Below the pieces are notes generated by a model. That model was not told the DNA's origin. It did not search any database and worked only from the letters and a program-made list of their open reading frames with translations. A program made the position numbers and the translations under genes. Shown in pieces: positions 2,684 through 11,199 of a stretch of 36,652 nt of DNA. The DNA comes from Methanobrevibacter sp. (GTDB taxonomy: Archaea; Methanobacteriota; Methanobacteria; Methanobacteriales; Methanobacteriaceae): positions 1 to 36,652 of the forward strand of contig NZ_JAFUHT010000072.1 in NCBI RefSeq assembly GCF_017468685.1. Reading direction: 5' to 3'. Each line of letters starts with the position of its first letter. Positions within the stretch are counted from its first letter, which is position 1.

Positions 2684-2704
2684 TTAATAGAAATATCTAT
2701 TAAT
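2683..2704. terminator. inverted repeat between convergent genes
   Basis: ATTAATAG (2683-2690) and CTATTAAT (2697-2704) form a perfect 8-bp inverted repeat around AAATAT, exactly where tarJ and the minus-strand gene 2684-3211 end. It could act as a two-way terminator, although no long T-run follows on either strand. Confidence 0.35.
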
Positions 2705-3211
2705 TATTCTGAAATATTCCAATCTAAAGTAATTTCTGTCTTTTTTGGCGCATTTAACAGGAAGATTTGCAAGAACATGAAAATCCTCTCCAGTTAAGCC
2801 TTCATGATTTTTGATTTTATTTTTAATCACTCTAAGAATCATGTGGCATAAGTCTTCCTGATTGCATGCAAGCTTGATGGTAAACTCAGCATCTGATTTT
2901 ATTGGGCACTCTTTTACAGTAACGTTTATGTCTTTTGGACAGAGAATATAAACGGAAACCTTTTTTTGATGTTTTTCATAGAGATTTTCAGCAAACTCAA
3001 CATATTTTGTAAGTTCAACTTCATCAAAATCTTTAATCTGAAACTCAAAATCAATGAACTCTCCTTCTTCTGTTGTAAAAATGTCTCCGCCGGGATAAAC
3101 ATTTTCATCAAGTTCCCTTTCATGCTTTGGAGTTCTGCATTTGATTCGTCTTTCATCATTAAATGTTTCTTTAATAATTTTAGCTTTTATATTAAAATCG
3201 TTGTCATTCAT
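2684..3211 (-). CDS. Methanobrevibacter-type unknown protein, possible PD-(D/E)XK-like fold
   Basis: A 175-aa soluble protein that I recognise only loosely as a family with several copies in Methanobrevibacter genomes. The middle (GEFIDFEFQIKDFDEVEL, about residues 50-67) resembles the beta strand with an acidic residue and E-x-Q of Rpn/PD-(D/E)XK-type nucleases. It is followed by KYVEFAENLY and a strand VSVYILCP, and the C-terminus (DRNYFRLEYFRIINR) is basic and aromatic. The nuclease reading is inference; the protein is shorter than typical Rpn proteins and I see no complete active site. AGGTTTTAAT before ATG 3211 supports the start. It ends 1 nt after tarJ on the opposite strand, inside a shared inverted repeat. 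Confidence 0.6.
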   Translation of the reverse strand: MNDNDFNIKAKIIKETFNDERRIKCRTPKHERELDENVYPGGDIFTTEEGEFIDFEFQIKDFDEVELTKYVEFAENLYEKHQKKVSVYILCPKDINVTVKECPIKSDAEFTIKLACNQEDLCHMILRVIKNKIKNHEGLTGEDFHVLANLPVKCAKKDRNYFRLEYFRIINRYFY

Positions 3212-3432
3212 ATTAAAACCTCACTAATTTTAATTTGTATTGTCTATATTTATTTTAATCATTTATAAATTAGTAAGTTATTAATTAAATCAATTTAAGT
3301 TAGTTATATCAATTTTACAGAGTTAATACAATTTTTTATTCTGAATTTAAATTATAGGATTTTCAAAATATTTTTAGTGTTGTTAAAACAAAAACCAAAA
3401 TGATTGAAGGTTGTTATAATAATGGTGATTAT

Positions 3433-3759
3433 ATGGATTATGAACGAATAATAAGTGAAAAATTTCCAAATTGTAATGTGGAAGTAATTCAACCTGATTT
3501 TTTAGAGCTTAAACAGTTGATTGAATACATTACAGATGATATAATAGTATATGGGCCTCATTCCATCATGGTTTACAATAACATGTTGAGATTTCTGATG
3601 AATGTTGGTGTTACCGGCAAAATCTATTATCTTGAAGGATTTAGTGAAGAGGATTTAAGCAATATTCATGAGGGGCTTTTGAAATTCACCTGGAACAAGG
3701 ATGTAAAGATAAATCTATTCAAAAATGCTGATCCGGACAGGGAGATATTGGGACTATAA
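3433..3759 (+). CDS. hypothetical 108-aa protein
   Basis: Begins MDYERIISEKFPN and appears to be a small alpha/beta protein: a predicted strand CNVEVIQP, a helix LELKQLIEYI, a strand DIIVYGPHS, a helix NNMLRFLMNV and a strand GKIYYLEGF. No family was recognised. An upstream in-frame ATG exists at 3400, but GGTGATT (3424-3430) immediately precedes ATG 3433, which I therefore prefer. About 220 nt of AT-rich DNA separates it from the divergent gene at 2684-3211. Its stop overlaps by 6 nt the end of a convergent minus-strand zinc-knuckle gene (3754-3918). Confidence 0.65.
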   Translation: MDYERIISEKFPNCNVEVIQPDFLELKQLIEYITDDIIVYGPHSIMVYNNMLRFLMNVGVTGKIYYLEGFSEEDLSNIHEGLLKFTWNKDVKINLFKNADPDREILGL

Positions 3760-3918
3760 CTGGAAAAACTCATCACAATATTCACAATAGTAGTTATATT
3801 CGCTTTCACAACAGTTTCCAAGTATTATTTCACCATTAAACGATGCAATTGCCAGTTCATCTGTTGTATCATGGAATACTTTAACTAATTTTCTCTCACA
3901 TTTCGGACACTTGCACAT
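3754..3918 (-). CDS. 54-aa zinc-ribbon-like small protein
   Basis: A short gene easily missed by length cut-offs. It starts MCKCPKCERKLVKVF and ends NYYCEYCDEFFQL. Cys4-x-x-Cys7 near the N-terminus and Cys45-x-x-Cys48 near the C-terminus are two knuckles of a rubredoxin/zinc-ribbon fold, with further cysteines at 2, 36 and 37. The body between them (TTDELAIASFNGEIIL) has beta character, as a zinc ribbon should. No clear Shine-Dalgarno is seen; an AT-rich TTTATAAA lies just upstream on the minus strand. It fills the gap between the convergent gene 3433-3759 and the next plus-strand gene. Function unknown; nucleic-acid or protein binding is only a guess. Confidence 0.65.
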   Translation of the reverse strand: MCKCPKCERKLVKVFHDTTDELAIASFNGEIILGNCCESEYNYYCEYCDEFFQL

Positions 3919-3968: not shown

Positions 3969-4226
3969 ATGATTATTAATCTTGGTGCTGAATTTGGTAC
4001 TCATTTGGAATCTAGTGATGACGCTATTGAACTGATTGATATTTTAAATAAAATACCAAAAGATGACTTCATAATTGATTTTAAGGAAGTAATTTTCGTT
4101 ACAATGAATTTTGCACAGGCATATTACACTGCCAAACTGGATTCCGATAAAAAAATATCTGAAATCAATCTGTCTGATGAAGTAACTGTAGTTATGGGTG
4201 CGGCTGATGAGGCATGCAATCCATAA
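3969..4226 (+). CDS. STAS-like protein (DUF4325 type), copy 1
   Basis: An 85-aa protein with the DUF4325 STAS-like pattern: a strand IIDFKEVIFV followed by a helix start MNFAQAYYTAK and a late strand-helix ISEINLSDEV. It is the same length as the protein at 5226-5483, with 36 of 85 residues identical by my gapless hand alignment, so the two are paralogues. STAS proteins of this kind usually pair with an HATPase-fold kinase or anti-factor, which is the next gene (4421-5236). The ribosome site is AGGTGT (3959-3964) and a TATA-like TTTTTAAATATTA lies just before it. A T-rich stretch follows the stop, then a 19-bp repeat array. The partner-switch role is inferred. Confidence 0.78.
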   Translation: MIINLGAEFGTHLESSDDAIELIDILNKIPKDDFIIDFKEVIFVTMNFAQAYYTAKLDSDKKISEINLSDEVTVVMGAADEACNP

Positions 4227-4257
4227 TCTTTTTATTTTTTTTTTTTAAAATTTAATT

Positions 4258-4314
4258 GTATGAGTTTGAAAAATTGTTATCACTTCGTAAAATTGCTTTC
4301 ATTTGAAACTGCTT
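4258..4314 (+). repeat. three 19-bp tandem units upstream of the HATPase gene
   Basis: Units at 4258-4276, 4277-4295 and 4296-4314; the first two end in AAATTG and carry a TTTGAAAAATTG-like core. The last unit runs into AACTGCTTATTTTATAT. The same arrangement with five units sits at 5511-5605 before the RNA ligase gene. The position before a likely promoter suggests an operator array. The rest of the gap 4227-4420 shows only a T-run and AT-rich DNA. Confidence 0.7.
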
Positions 4315-4420
4315 ATTTTATATGCTTCTTTTACTAAATTGATTTTGTTAACTGTAATGTTGTTTAAATCCGGATTTTTTCACATTCAAGTTAATTATTG
4401 AATATTTGTGAGGTGTTTTA

Positions 4421-5236
4421 ATGGCACTTAAAAATCTATTTGATAATTATAAAGAATTTGAAGAAATAATTAAACATGAAAGTAATGGAACAATTGATTT
4501 GAAAGATGTTGAACTTAATCCAGCGACTGTACTACCACTGTTATGTGAATGTAAAAATAATAATCTTAAAATATTTAACGGTGAGAATGCATTTCAATAT
4601 TTAGGAAATATTTTAAATAACGACGTGTTTTTCTCTAAATTGCCTAAATCTAGAGTTGAAAGTGATGAAACTGATTTTTTAACAAATTTTGTAGAAAATC
4701 TAGATTCAGAATATGGTAGTTATTTTGTTTTAAGGCATACAATTTCAGAGTTGGCCAATAATGTGTATGACCACTCTAAAATTGAAATAAATGGTGGTCA
4801 AAGTTATATTTTTGCAAAACTGTATGAGGATTATAAAAAACTTGATTTGTGTGTAATTGATGATGGATTATCTATTCCTAGATTATTTGAAGAGTCCAGT
4901 GTCTCCTTTGACAATGATTGTAAAGCTCTTGAAATGGCAATAGGAGTTTTTTCAACAGTTTCTAATAATGATTATGAAATGGGAAATGGTTTGAGGACAA
5001 TCGTCAGATTAATAGCAGAAGGAAATGGGGGTGAAATTTTAATAGTGTCTAGGAATGCAGGATTGCATATTTGTGGTGAGAACTATAGATATTATTCTTT
5101 TGATGATGAATACGGCTTTGATGGAACTTTAGTTTCAATAAGATTAAATAAGTTTGAAGTTCAAAATATTTATGAGTTACTTGAGCCTCAAAAATTAAAT
5201 AATTATAAATATGATGGTGCAACTTATGATTATTAA
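4421..5236 (+). CDS. HATPase-fold protein with STAS-like N-terminus (anti-factor/kinase type)
   Basis: A 271-aa protein with a GHKL ATPase domain. The N box is ELANNVYDHS (Glu110, Asn113, Asn114, Asp117), the G1 box VIDDGLSIP (Asp147-Gly149), the G2 box MGNGLRTIVR (Gly188-Gly190), and the closing strand FDGTLVSIRL (Gly225-Thr226). There is no phospho-acceptor histidine region and no sensor. Residues about 20-65 (IDLKDVELNPATVLPLL then LKIFNG) themselves look STAS-like, so the protein may be a STAS-HATPase fusion. Flanking STAS-like genes, the second overlapping its 3' end by 11 nt, suggest a SpoIIAB/SpoIIAA-like partner switch. Archaea lack sigma factors, so the target must differ. GAGGTG (4410-4415) precedes the ATG. 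Confidence 0.85.
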   Translation: MALKNLFDNYKEFEEIIKHESNGTIDLKDVELNPATVLPLLCECKNNNLKIFNGENAFQYLGNILNNDVFFSKLPKSRVESDETDFLTNFVENLDSEYGSYFVLRHTISELANNVYDHSKIEINGGQSYIFAKLYEDYKKLDLCVIDDGLSIPRLFEESSVSFDNDCKALEMAIGVFSTVSNNDYEMGNGLRTIVRLIAEGNGGEILIVSRNAGLHICGENYRYYSFDDEYGFDGTLVSIRLNKFEVQNIYELLEPQKLNNYKYDGATYDY

Positions 5237-5483
5237 ACTTAAAGATGAAATAAATCGTGCCTTGGATTTTAATAAATCCGCTACAGATTTATTTAATAAA
5301 ATAAATCAGAAAAATGAATCTGATTTCACAATGGATTTTGATGGAGTTATTTTTATTAGCATGAGTTTTGCACAGGCATATTACGCTTCCAAAAAGAAGT
5401 CTAATAAAAATATTTCTGAAATTAATCTCTCAGATGATGTAAAACCTATGATGGAATTGGTTGAAAAGCAACTGATGCATTAG
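5226..5483 (+). CDS. STAS-like protein (DUF4325 type), copy 2
   Basis: An 85-aa paralogue of the protein at 3969-4226, with the same core: MDFDGVIFISMSFAQAYY and ISEINLSDDV. I chose ATG 5226 over the in-frame ATG 5211 because it gives MII at the start and exactly the length of the paralogue. The gene overlaps the end of the HATPase gene by 11 nt, a hallmark of translational coupling and of partners made in fixed ratio. Divergence is highest in the N-terminal helix and the C-terminal 15 residues, which may set partner specificity. It is followed by a T-run and a five-unit 19-bp repeat array. Confidence 0.78.
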   Translation: MIIKLKDEINRALDFNKSATDLFNKINQKNESDFTMDFDGVIFISMSFAQAYYASKKKSNKNISEINLSDDVKPMMELVEKQLMH

Positions 5484-5510: not shown

Positions 5511-5605
5511 TTCTCATTTTGAAAAATTGCTCCCAGTTTGAAATATTGCTGTGAGTTTATAAAATTGCTTTCACTTTGAAAAATTGTTCTCGTTTATAAC
5601 TGCTT
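5511..5605 (+). repeat. five 19-bp tandem units upstream of the RNA ligase gene
   Basis: Units at 5511-5529, 5530-5548, 5549-5567, 5568-5586 and a diverged fifth at 5587-5605; the first four end in ATTG and contain TTTGAAAAATTG-like cores. The last unit leads into AACTGCTTATTTTATAT, as in the array at 4258-4314. The 280-nt gap 5484-5763 otherwise holds AT-rich promoter-like DNA and the ligase ribosome site. Confidence 0.75.
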
Positions 5606-5763
5606 ATTTTATATACTATGCGATGCATATTACTTTATTAAATAAAATTGCTTTATTGAATTCTAATTTGATTGATTAGATTATGTATATATTTCAAATT
5701 TGATTTTAAAGCAAAAAATTTTATAACAATTTATTCACAATTGGTCAGTTCGGAGGTCATTTT

Positions 5764-7053
5764 ATGAAAGAAAAACTTTGCGAGAAATATTTTGAAAACA
5801 ATGTAAAACCTAAACATTTGCGCCAATTTAAAACAAAGACTCCTAAAGGAAATGTCATTGAGGGATATATTTCAAGAAAACCCAACAAACATTTGGGATC
5901 AATGGTTATCACTCATGTAACTGAAAAATCAGGAAAAAGCTATGATTGTGAGCAGTTCATACAGTCATTTCCAAAAATCCATTATTGGGACAGAAGACAT
6001 CAACTTAAAGATGATGATGAAAGCATAATTTACCATTGTCAGGAAAAACTCGATGGGACATGCCTTATAGTTTATGCATTGAAGGATGAAATGGGAAACA
6101 TCATTGAAATCATTCCAAAAACTCGTGGAAAAGAGGTGGCTGATGAACATGTCCGTGAAATGTTTTCATTAGTTGATAAAAAGGCAATTGAAGAATTTTA
6201 CAAAGACAATGTCCATGCCAATGACACATTGATGTTTGAGTTGTACGGCATATTGAATAAGCATGAGATTGCTCATATGGACACATACATCGACATTAGC
6301 TTAATCGGCGCATATGTTGATGAATCATTTCTTAACTACATAGCAATTAAATGTTATTCTGATTTGGATAATTTCAAGACTCCGGATACAGTATTTACAA
6401 TAGAGAAGTATCCGTTTGATAATTCCTTTTCAATTAGATGGTGCGGTATCAATCAAAGGCTTAAAAATTATGAGGTTTCATGCAATGAGACATTTCCAAC
6501 ATTATTTGATGCATTAAATGAAGTGAAGTTATTATTGCAGAGGCTAAATGAAAAATACGCTGAGTATAATGGAAGACGTGTTATCGAAGGAGTTGTAATT
6601 AACGGTGAGCATTCAAACGGCGGGCAAATGTATTTGAAAATCAAACCAAAAGATATTGAAATCGAGGCTAAAACTTTGGATTCAGTGCCCCGTAGGTTCA
6701 TTGTCAAGGAAATTCAAAAATACTTTGATGAATACGGAACTCAGGTTCGTGAAATCTATGAAAGTGATGAAACCCATTATGTCAGATATGTAAATCATCA
6801 GCTGAAAGAGGAGTTCACATATGAGCAGATTGAAGATCCAAGAACCCGTCGCAGAATCAAGAATATTTTTATGGAAGTTTGGGATTCTAAAATTCCGCCA
6901 AAAAGTCTTCAAAATATTTGCGAAGAGTTAATCCGTGAAAATCCGGATTCCAGTATTCAGGATTTACTTAAAATCTTTGCAAAAACATATCCTAGTAAGA
7001 AAAAGGATTCAAGGCATGTCTATAGTATTCTATCAAAAAGGATGATGGTGTGA
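5764..7053 (+). CDS. ATP-dependent RNA ligase-like nucleotidyltransferase
   Basis: A 429-aa protein with the motif set of covalent nucleotidyltransferases. Motif I is EKLDGT with the AMP-accepting lysine at Lys95, motif Ia PKTRGK (118-123), motif III FELYG (158-162), motif IV EGVVI (275-279) and motif V LKIKPKD (291-297). About 90 residues precede motif I and about 130 helical, basic residues follow motif V. The layout fits the RNA ligase family better than DNA ligases, which carry OB and HhH domains; it looks unlike the usual methanogen Rnl3 circularising ligase, though I cannot align them. GGAGGT (5753-5758) sets the start. The predicted role is RNA end sealing, perhaps tRNA or mRNA repair. 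The upstream repeat array is shared with the HATPase gene. Confidence 0.82.
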   Translation: MKEKLCEKYFENNVKPKHLRQFKTKTPKGNVIEGYISRKPNKHLGSMVITHVTEKSGKSYDCEQFIQSFPKIHYWDRRHQLKDDDESIIYHCQEKLDGTCLIVYALKDEMGNIIEIIPKTRGKEVADEHVREMFSLVDKKAIEEFYKDNVHANDTLMFELYGILNKHEIAHMDTYIDISLIGAYVDESFLNYIAIKCYSDLDNFKTPDTVFTIEKYPFDNSFSIRWCGINQRLKNYEVSCNETFPTLFDALNEVKLLLQRLNEKYAEYNGRRVIEGVVINGEHSNGGQMYLKIKPKDIEIEAKTLDSVPRRFIVKEIQKYFDEYGTQVREIYESDETHYVRYVNHQLKEEFTYEQIEDPRTRRRIKNIFMEVWDSKIPPKSLQNICEELIRENPDSSIQDLLKIFAKTYPSKKKDSRHVYSILSKRMMV

Positions 7054-7350: not shown

Positions 7351-8286
7351 GTGAGTGAACAGAAATTAGAAATATTCAATGTATTGAATTATTTAAACAA
7401 AGGTTATGAGCTTAATGATATTTTGAAGGAAGGACAATTTGGAACATTTCCTTCCGCACAGGATTGCATTAAATATTTGGCTGATGAAGGATATCTTGAA
7501 GGAGAGTTAGGTGAAATAGCCGCAGATGACAGTGAAAAATTGACTGCTGAGGAGATTTCCAAAAAATACACAGTTGCAGAACTAAAAGACATTTTAAGAG
7601 AAAACGGTTTAAAAGTTTCAGGTAAAAAACAGGAATTGATTGAAAGAGTTCTGCCGGTATTGAATGGTGATGCAGAAAGTGACGGTTCATTGGATGATTT
7701 CAATAAATCCAATGATTTAAAATTAACTCAAAAAGCTAAAAATTTCCTTGATGAAAACGTTTGGATAGACTTATATATGTTTTCCCTTGTTGCATTCAGA
7801 TTTGAGGATTTTGAAACCTATGTTGCAAACTCAGCAGATGATTATATAGAAACAGGATTGAAATTCTGTGATGAAATAATTTCAAGGGCATTGATGGCAA
7901 ATCAGTTTCTGGTATTCATTGACGCATTGTCTGCAAAAGCACATGTTTATGCATATGCAGGGGATTATGAGTCCTTCATGGATTATGACTTGCAAAGATT
8001 CATTTTAGGATTAAACCCTATCGTTATGGATGCTCAAACCTATGCAGGTTATGATGTAATCAATGAAGCTAATGTAGTTAATCTTAAAAATGTAGTTGAA
8101 AACCTTGACATGGGAAGCTTAAAGAAAAGATTTGACAAAATCTGGAACAAATCCCATATTAAAAATACTACTGTGCCTAAAAAGACTGCTTTTAAAACAT
8201 TACAAAAGGCAATCAAAGGCGCTAACCTTGAAGAGTTGAATTTTGATTTGAAAGAAAAATTCTTCAATAAGAAATTTGGAATTTAA
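7351..8286 (+). CDS. SAP-domain protein
   Basis: A 311-aa protein starting at GTG, with AGGTG at 7341-7345. Residues about 73-103 form a SAP motif (YTVAELKDILRENGLKVSG then KKQELIERVL), a helix-extended loop-helix that usually binds DNA. The first 60 residues look like a small helical domain that recognises QFGTFPSAQDCIKYL-like features. After the SAP motif, LTQKAKNFLDENVWIDLYMF matches a segment after the SAP motif of the protein at 9382-11199, so the two share a module. It is followed with no gap by a membrane protein gene (8287-8874), probably co-transcribed. The specific function is unknown. Confidence 0.75.
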   Translation: MSEQKLEIFNVLNYLNKGYELNDILKEGQFGTFPSAQDCIKYLADEGYLEGELGEIAADDSEKLTAEEISKKYTVAELKDILRENGLKVSGKKQELIERVLPVLNGDAESDGSLDDFNKSNDLKLTQKAKNFLDENVWIDLYMFSLVAFRFEDFETYVANSADDYIETGLKFCDEIISRALMANQFLVFIDALSAKAHVYAYAGDYESFMDYDLQRFILGLNPIVMDAQTYAGYDVINEANVVNLKNVVENLDMGSLKKRFDKIWNKSHIKNTTVPKKTAFKTLQKAIKGANLEELNFDLKEKFFNKKFGI

Positions 8287-9381: not shown

Positions 9382-11199
9382 ATGTCAAATATCGAGTATG
9401 TTATTCGTAAGGAAAATTATTCTGAATTGATTTGTGCTGAAAATGAATGGGATTTTTTAGACACTGAGGAACTTCTTCAAAATTATCCTTATATTCTTGA
9501 TTCAATGGCAAATGAAGAATATTATCTTGAAAATGAAATATGTAGTTTTTTTGATGAGATAATTTTTGAAAATAAGGTCGTTGGTTTTGCAACATTTCAA
9601 ACAAGATTTGATAGTGCATTATTATTGTCTGAATGTTTTATATTGCCGGAATTTAGAGGAAATAGATTATTCTTCAATGAAATTTGTAAAATGTTATTTG
9701 TAAGTTCTAATTTTGGAATATTGCAACCTACAAGAAATATTGTTGAACTGTTAATTAGCTATGCTTTTGCTAAAAATTTCAGTGAAGACATTGTTGTAAG
9801 TGCAATCGATTTTTATTTTGATGATTTTGATGCAGTATCCAGTAAAAATCGTGAGCTTGATGATGAAGAAATGAGTTCATCAAATTTCTATGATTTAAGT
9901 ATAAACTCCACAATTTTTGTTGACGGTGATGAAATAATCTACCATAATCTGCTTGAAAATGATTTATTAAAAAATGGGCCACGAAAGGAATTAAACGGAG
10001 AGTATTTTGATAATCTTAAAATAGTTTTCTCAAAAAATAAAGATGAACTAGATGAATTGGTCGTTGAATTGAAACAAGAATTGCCTCAAGTTGAATTCGG
10101 ATTTGATGAAATTGTCGGTCGTGGTGAAGGATTATCTGAGTTTATGCAGAATATGGTTAATGAAAGTGTTGTAACCTATGAGGAAGCAATAGGTCTTAAA
10201 AAACAATTAACTGATGAATATGATGCAGGTGAATTAAGTGATGATAATGTTGATCAAAGATTGATTTCATTATTAGTTGATGAACCTCCTCAATTCGAAG
10301 ATTTTTCTGAATTCAAAGAAGTATTAAGTGATTTTGGCAGTGATGATGAAGAGGCAGAAGTTATTAATGAGTTTTTCAATATGATTGGAGATAATGAAGA
10401 ATTGGGAAACAATGTCTTGCAGGCCATATTGACTGATGATGCTGAATATTTCCAGAACTTAATAATAAATGCCATGGCGAATGATGATGATTTCATGGAA
10501 AATTTCATGGATTTGACCAATGAATATGGTGATGAATCAGATAATGAGTATTTCTTTGAGGATGCTCAGTTAAACCATAATTATAAACTAGATGATATTG
10601 TATATGGAAAGGATTATCCTATAAGCTATGATAGGCAAATCTATCGATTTTTAGATTCATTAAATGCTGAAGCCAATTATGGGATGATTATGAATTTCAT
10701 CGAATCAGAAATATCTTCTAAAAACATGCTGACCAGTTTAATGTTGAATTCCCAATTAATAAAAACTGAAGGGGAAGTCATTGATTGGATGAATAGTGCA
10801 TCCATGTTTAAAAAAGATGAACTGAAAGAACTGTTAAGAGAAAATAATCTTAAAGTCACAGGTAACAAACCGGAGCTTTTAAAAAGACTTGCAGATAATA
10901 ATGTGGCCTATGGGGAAACATTCAAAATAACTCAAAAAGGCAAAGATTATATAAAAGAATTTTCTTGGATTGAATTCTATGAGGATTTCTTATATGATTT
11001 TGATTTCGATGATTTCTATAAATATTTAGATACTCATGAAGGAAAATTAAAGGATGTTTCATTAAAATACTTGGATGAACATATTGCATTAGCTCGTCAA
11101 AAAGAGGATAATGAATATTTGGAGACATGTATTTTTACAAAAAAACTTATTTTAGATGAAGGGGATGAATTTATAATCGATTTAGGTATTCCTGAGTAA
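9382..11199 (+). CDS. GNAT-like plus SAP-domain fusion protein
   Basis: A 605-aa acidic protein. Residues about 55-125 look like a GNAT acetyltransferase core: EIIFENKVVGFATF then ECFILPEFRGNRLFF, where the PEFRGN turn corresponds to the acetyl-CoA binding loop. A long Asp/Glu-rich helical middle follows (about 200-440). Residues about 474-505 form a SAP motif (MFKKDELKELLRENNLKVTG), then KITQKGKDYIKEFSWIEFYE, which matches the segment after the SAP motif of the 7351-8286 protein. Start: GGTGGATT before ATG 9382. The C-terminal 29 nt overlap the convergent gene at 11171-11848. A chromatin-targeted acetyltransferase is conceivable in archaea with histones, but this is inference and the GNAT catalytic residues are not verified. 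Confidence 0.68.
   Translation: MSNIEYVIRKENYSELICAENEWDFLDTEELLQNYPYILDSMANEEYYLENEICSFFDEIIFENKVVGFATFQTRFDSALLLSECFILPEFRGNRLFFNEICKMLFVSSNFGILQPTRNIVELLISYAFAKNFSEDIVVSAIDFYFDDFDAVSSKNRELDDEEMSSSNFYDLSINSTIFVDGDEIIYHNLLENDLLKNGPRKELNGEYFDNLKIVFSKNKDELDELVVELKQELPQVEFGFDEIVGRGEGLSEFMQNMVNESVVTYEEAIGLKKQLTDEYDAGELSDDNVDQRLISLLVDEPPQFEDFSEFKEVLSDFGSDDEEAEVINEFFNMIGDNEELGNNVLQAILTDDAEYFQNLIINAMANDDDFMENFMDLTNEYGDESDNEYFFEDAQLNHNYKLDDIVYGKDYPISYDRQIYRFLDSLNAEANYGMIMNFIESEISSKNMLTSLMLNSQLIKTEGEVIDWMNSASMFKKDELKELLRENNLKVTGNKPELLKRLADNNVAYGETFKITQKGKDYIKEFSWIEFYEDFLYDFDFDDFYKYLDTHEGKLKDVSLKYLDEHIALARQKEDNEYLETCIFTKKLILDEGDEFIIDLGIPE

Follow-up and report, generated by a model that had tools for sequence, protein, structure and literature searches.

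A candidate GHKL kinase-STAS switch pair and an independent STAS paralogue at an iteron-bearing locus of Methanobrevibacter

We propose that a candidate GHKL protein kinase and the small STAS-like protein encoded directly behind it (STAS2) probably constitute a switch of the CapK-CapS/VapK-VapS type within a stress regulon of Methanobrevibacter, and that a second STAS-like protein encoded upstream (STAS1), once a duplicate of STAS2, no longer has the phospho-site and is independent of the kinase. The genes lie on the forward strand of a 36,652-nucleotide stretch of Methanobrevibacter sp. DNA (hereafter the window), with STAS1 at 3969..4226, the kinase at 4421..5236 and STAS2 at 5226..5483. An initial sequence-only reading had placed them at these positions, with STAS2 overlapping the ATPase gene by 11 nt, and the coordinates were confirmed. 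It had also taken the three genes for one partner-switch module. From that proposal, the pairing of a GHKL kinase with a neighbouring STAS protein, the SpoIIAB/SpoIIAA-like fold and the retained substrate serine survive; the single three-gene cassette does not. At the level of sequence, the conservation of the pair, the folds, the Ser/Asn split between the paralogues, synteny, constraint and the shared operators are established, and the apparent trio is two separate things: a kinase-STAS2 pair and an independent STAS1 belonging to the core of the genus.

The candidate kinase and its probable substrate

The ATPase comprises 271 residues. Intact N, G1 and G2 boxes had been assigned to it, and these were verified as E110/N114 (4748-4762), D147-D-G149 and G188-N-G190; in an alignment of 28 homologues, the columns of E110, N114, D147, G149, G188 and G190 are invariant or almost so. 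As the earlier reading also held, no histidine-kinase dimerisation or phosphoacceptor region was seen. The match to HATPase_c (E=0.0043) fell under the Pfam cut-off, and a stronger one was obtained to phrog_3364 (E=2.3e-30), a viral family without assigned function. The structure model (pLDDT 89.7, pTM 0.90) found its best solved match in SpoIIAB in complex with SpoIIAA (1tid; probability 1.00, TM 0.68 by target length). A STAS-like N-terminus, which had been suggested for the ATPase, was unsupported by profile comparison: hhalign of the N-terminal 80 residues with the STAS profile returned a probability of 1.2%, and the β-α-β-α order predicted for residues 20-66 is at most compatible with such a terminus. 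A domain-library search detected no HTH in the protein, a viral fold search gave no relative of the same architecture, and no natural kinase-STAS fusion occurred among the loci read. We regard the window ATPase as a SpoIIAB-like GHKL protein kinase candidate.

STAS2 (start codon ATG at 5226) has 85 residues, which hold a single STAS domain and no wHTH. Its match to DUF4325 (PF14213; E=0.11, 12.7 bits) lies below the curated cut-off of 23, and it also matches phrog_20761 (E=3.7e-9), again a viral family without assigned function. The structure model (pLDDT 94.7) contains one STAS domain only and matched the STAS domains of SLC26, RsbS, prestin, SpoIIAA and RsbV; the E-values were weak, and ClpP chains were interspersed among these matches. 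Curated domain libraries thus lend weak backing to the family names given in the initial reading: the HATPase_c and DUF4325 (STAS2) matches are sub-threshold and STAS1 has no Pfam match to DUF4325; the folds that those names imply are backed by the models, both for GHKL (ATPase, close to 1tid) and for STAS (STAS2).

Ser47 of STAS2 (codon AGT, 5364-5366) occupies the N-terminal end of helix 46-58, which corresponds to the site of Ser58 in SpoIIAA, and by column count is one position off Ser48 of VapS. Position 47 of the kinase-linked STAS proteins is Ser, with Thr once (L046) and Phe in L056, beside a truncated kinase. STAS2 is a probable substrate of the kinase through Ser47. Among solved chains, the STAS profile matched Escherichia VapS (9z7o) best by sequence, albeit weakly (E=0.033), and it is because of this match that we take CapKS and VapKSC to be the nearest known systems. 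A search of plasmids with the VapS fragment yielded no match.

Two STAS paralogues with separate histories

STAS1 is likewise a stand-alone STAS-like protein of 85 residues, ending in GAADEACNP. The 36 identical residues that had been counted by hand between the paralogues were recovered by BLASTP (36 identities over 76 aligned residues, E=9e-22). At position 47, however, STAS1 has Asn (codon AAT, 4107-4109), one transition apart from the AGT of STAS2. Asn47 is present in 47/47 STAS1 copies read, all of which end in EA[CV]NP, so that STAS1 is unlikely to be a kinase substrate. The gene was found in 52/67 genus genomes at 69% identity or more, at a constant site with the same neighbours across the genus and mostly without the kinase, complete single-contig genomes included. 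A 54-residue CxxC-rich, zinc-ribbon-like protein is encoded divergently beside it (3754..3918, - strand; conserved in ~33 loci). MarR-type genes lie within a few kb of STAS1 in several genomes (G085:C3:5641-6036, G043:C1:681227-681622, G071:C48:32390-32779 and others), and SAP-domain proteins are encoded near the locus at 7351-8286, which is syntenic across the genus, and at 9382-11199 of the window.

The order STAS1-kinase-STAS2 recurs in at least seven same-genus loci, so the trio expected in related genomes was indeed there, and a truncated relic is present in L112. The kinase-STAS2 pair has a patchy distribution in the genus (8 loci with 7 changes on the tree), and is broken in L041, L046 and L054. 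Some of the broken kinases could be assembly errors, since most of the genomes are draft MAGs, though several of the breaks differ in kind. Directly 3' of the STAS1 stop codon, a T-rich run (4228..4246, + strand) probably marks a transcription end, from which we infer that STAS1 is a separate transcription unit; the kinase-STAS2 pair has its own promoter. Comparison of the same genomes gave pN/pS values of 0.05-0.21 for STAS1, 0.18-0.48 for STAS2 and 0.29-0.49 for the kinase.

These data bear on the idea that the two STAS proteins are competing partners of one ATPase, with STAS1 as a non-phosphorylatable decoy permanently occupying the kinase. The same locus order in at least seven genomes and the 47% identity of the paralogues over 76 residues are in keeping with it, and a non-phosphorylatable STAS protein could in principle sequester a kinase. 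Nevertheless, we judge a three-protein switch very unlikely: STAS1 occurs in 52 of the 67 genomes and most of these, including complete single-contig ones, lack this kinase; it is retained where the kinase decays (L041, L046, L054, L112); and the two parts are separate transcription units evolving at different rates, STAS1 much the more slowly. A single cassette with two competing partners is thus not supported; Asn47 in every STAS1 copy, the T-run and the pair's own promoter also speak against it. In the tree, STAS1 falls within the clade of the trio's STAS2 proteins (support 100/99), although on a long branch. The simplest reading is that STAS1 arose as a duplicate of STAS2 at this locus, lost its phospho-site and became fixed, and that kinase-STAS2 was later lost many times.

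An iteron operator and the genes behind it

A 66-nt block lies 3' of each STAS gene and is 82% identical between the two places. In it, units of ~19 nt that approximate TTTGTAAAATTGTTCTCAC are repeated in tandem, and a TATA-like core, AACTGCTTATTTTA(T/A)ATACT, comes after them. The first copy (4261..4326, + strand), with two iterons starting at 4265 and 4284 and the core AACTGCTTATTTTATATGCT, is the putative operator/promoter of kinase-STAS2. The second is part of the putative operator/promoter (5514..5617, + strand; tandem ~19-nt iterons and AACTGCTTATTTTATATACT) of an RNA-ligase-like nucleotidyltransferase gene (5764..7053, + strand), whose product carries a KLDGT motif and matches RNA_lig_T4_1 below the cut-off (E=0.0012). 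In all trio loci having these genes, one block precedes kinase-STAS2 and the other the RNA-ligase-like gene. The operator was also found before the RNA-ligase gene in loci without the kinase, and L122 retains a relic block without either gene. The RNA-ligase-like gene gave no match to phages, and PADLOC returned no match of weight on the window.

Further sites were sought with a sequence-only model, as an exact 39-nt pattern allowing three mismatches missed even the window's own sites. The model detected sites in 62/67 genus genomes. In the source genome 21 were obtained at E≤0.01 and 36 at E≤0.1, of which ~9 are strong (E≤1e-6) and the weaker ones are leads. One weaker match (3305..3338, - strand; E=0.006) lies in the window upstream of a gene for a 175-residue protein (2684..3211, - strand), a possible regulon member whose orthologue in L115 is also preceded by the site. 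None of 59 distinct sites scoring at least 22 bits lies inside an ORF, and 54/57 are co-directional with the next gene. Reversed and Markov-shuffled controls gave 0 matches in 1.5 Mb, compared with 84 in the real sequence (overlapping loci included). The model was trained in STAS1 genomes, and its counts follow the clade on which it was trained.

The genes behind these operators include those for RlaP (E=3.6e-53), Thg1 (E=1.1e-32, in G069), Cas2 (E=1.2e-15) together with Cas1 (E=6e-70) and a HEPN protein (E=2.6e-9). Also among them are genes for MntP, AAA_21, a MarR regulator and part of a family B DNA polymerase, as well as for JAB-like proteins, which were recognised by motif only. RlaP is the RNA-ligase-associating family of the polymerase-beta type and works with RNA ligases (PMC7824862). 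Judged by its promoter, kinase-STAS2 belongs with RNA repair and CRISPR genes to one set defined by the operator. The operator is also present where the kinase is missing from the genome, so the regulon includes the pair but does not need it. A literature search for the iteron operator returned nothing relevant; to our present knowledge, it is undescribed.

From the shared operator, we take co-production of the switch with RNA repair, in response to damage or viruses, to be most likely. A broader proposal, in which an iteron damage-response regulon couples RNA repair (RNA ligase, RlaP, Thg1), CRISPR adaptation (cas2-cas1) and the kinase pair, with STAS1 as a permanently active member of the circuit, seems to us rather unlikely in that full form. 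Equally improbable, in our estimate, is that STAS2 (or STAS1) serves as an anti-factor or co-factor of an iteron-binding protein, through which the kinase would control the RNA-repair regulon directly. Such control would accord with kinase-STAS2 standing under the same operator, an arrangement that would allow autoregulation as in CapS, and with the MarR-type regulators that are found behind operators or at the STAS1 locus. It would also accord with the larger number of sites in genomes with STAS1 (median 9 per genome, versus 1 without), although these are raw counts, uncorrected for phylogeny, from a model trained in STAS1 genomes. Against it, the regulon exists without kinase-STAS2 and neither STAS protein has a DNA-binding domain. 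One MarR gene (G000:C77:95740-96180) was considered as the master regulator, but iterons were found upstream of just 4/30 orthologues; it remains a lead.

Relation to known switches and biological meaning

Kinase homologues were detected in 45/139 genomes of the family, and where the homologue is intact and the sequence behind it readable, a STAS gene nearly always lies directly 3' of it. The source genome carries a second, divergent pair (G000:C50:16391-17337; L076) at a conserved position in the genus, where it was also seen in L066, L067, L072-L075 and L077. Related loci were sought with a 9-row kinase alignment. Pairs were also found in Nitrosocosmicus, on a Halobaculum plasmid, in a Bacteroides phage and in Streptococcus prophages, where they sit just behind the lysin. 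On the Halobaculum plasmid, an 88-residue STAS-like ORF behind the kinase gene (L313, 4484-4750) is absent from the PLSDB gene table. The Bacteroides and Streptococcus phages, with DUF4325 and an adjacent ATP-binding protein, share the gene order of the window; the window proteins, in contrast, fall below the Pfam cut-off for DUF4325 and carry the motif SxSFAQxY in place of the bacterial one.

In several methanogens, and also on an IMG/VR contig, the pair is located directly behind an integrase gene (L203, L045, L048, L059, L071; prophages or integrated elements). In L042 (7493-10472), a kinase-STAS pair lies near a DUF4411/PIN protein and a HATPase_c_3 protein, a possible defence island. The Methanothermobacter prophage psiM100 (AF301375; L200, 5998-8619) carries in its insert IFa a kinase (ORFB), a STAS protein (ORFC; DUF4325, Pfam E=6.5e-7, 29.4 bits) and a PIN-like protein (ORFD). 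ORFD has 492 residues, of which the N-terminus matches PIN below the cut-off (E=0.013) and a ~340-residue part is without assignment. With the gene order of vapKSC, psiM100 kinase-STAS-PIN appears to be an archaeal VapKSC look-alike.

PIN is the third gene in psiM100 only; no PIN gene adjoins the window pair or most pairs of the family. This matters for the view that the pair is a VapKSC-like toxin-antitoxin or abortive-infection module with an unlinked or lost toxin, in which STAS2 would be the antitoxin and the kinase the trigger. The kinase-STAS-PIN insert of psiM100, the pairs adjoining integrases or occurring in phages, the patchy distribution with its frequent decay, and the RNA repair genes of the same regulon, which would suit an RNase effector, all speak in its favour. 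The missing PIN neighbour and the want in STAS2 of the longer C-terminal tail by which VapS blocks VapC speak against it, and overall we find it possible yet doubtful. Co-occurrence of the pair with the RNA-ligase gene gave a raw Fisher p=0.045, and was not significant over phylogenetically independent pairs.

The kinase of both CapK-CapS and VapK-VapS-VapC is of the GHKL type and acts on its STAS partner by phosphorylating a conserved Ser; CapS is a repressor and VapS the antitoxin of a PIN RNase (PMC13373217). Activation by ssDNA was demonstrated for CapK, and a conserved aromatic residue (F54/W68) is linked to this activation in the VapKSC/CapKS kinases (PMC13373217). The window pair resembles VapKSC in having a kinase gene with an intact GHKL catalytic site followed by a short stand-alone STAS partner with a conserved Ser/Thr where helix 2 begins. 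It differs in its archaeal origin, in the absence of a VapC-like gene and in its iteron operator, common to RNA repair genes. With CapK-CapS it shares the kinase-substrate pairing, in the window a probable one, with the CapS substrate Ser equivalent to SpoIIAA Ser58, and an operon with its own repeated operator; unlike CapK-CapS, it has no HTH in the kinase, no wHTH in the STAS protein and no immune operon directly downstream, where the next gene is RNA-ligase-like. Without an adjacent PIN/VapC, a kinase HTH or a STAS2 wHTH, neither the CapKS nor the VapKSC output is present in the window. The likeness to SpoIIAB-SpoIIAA and RsbW-RsbV extends over the GHKL (1tid) and STAS folds, the N-box catalytic E/N and the position of the substrate Ser; the window kinase, however, has an extra ~95-residue N-terminal domain and a very remote GHKL sequence. 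As the bacterial yardstick first chosen, SpoIIAB/SpoIIAA therefore holds for the fold, while the nearest systems are CapKS/VapKSC rather than sigma-factor switches.

In the mechanism we favour, the GHKL kinase would be activated by stress; by analogy, the signal could be ssDNA that arises when phages attack or DNA is damaged. The kinase would phosphorylate Ser47 at the start of helix α2 of STAS2, breaking the complex of STAS2 with a putative target; the effector so restrained would be encoded elsewhere. Two or more ~19-nt iterons before the TATA-like core would drive kinase-STAS2 and the adjacent RNA-ligase-like gene and, at other loci, RlaP, Thg1, cas2-cas1, HEPN and other genes, presumably through an iteron-binding regulator. 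STAS1, its phospho-site lost after duplication from STAS2, would be fixed as a core gene working without the kinase. The lack of a neighbouring PIN gene, together with the occurrence of the regulon where the pair is missing, leads us to see the pair as a stress-induced defence arm with its effector elsewhere and not as a master regulator.

The paper on CapKS and VapKSC (PMC13373217, 2026) covers bacteria only, archaea appearing just in its reference list. The promoter element common to the kinase pair, RNA-repair and CRISPR genes suggests an archaeal relative of these systems, and the data as a whole suggest that the window pair represents this recently reported class of switch in an archaeal variant, with its output a proposal, and that the paralogue next to it has been exapted. 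Phospho-switches built from STAS and GHKL proteins are known from bacteria, and an archaeal branch, to which the prophage-borne kinase-STAS-PIN version belongs, would extend them to a domain that, to our knowledge, has no sigma factors. As to the processes with which such switches may be used in archaea, the shared operator points to RNA repair and defence, a guess open to direct testing, and a core paralogue that everywhere lacks the phospho-site would clearly exemplify the exaptation of a switch component for a different task.
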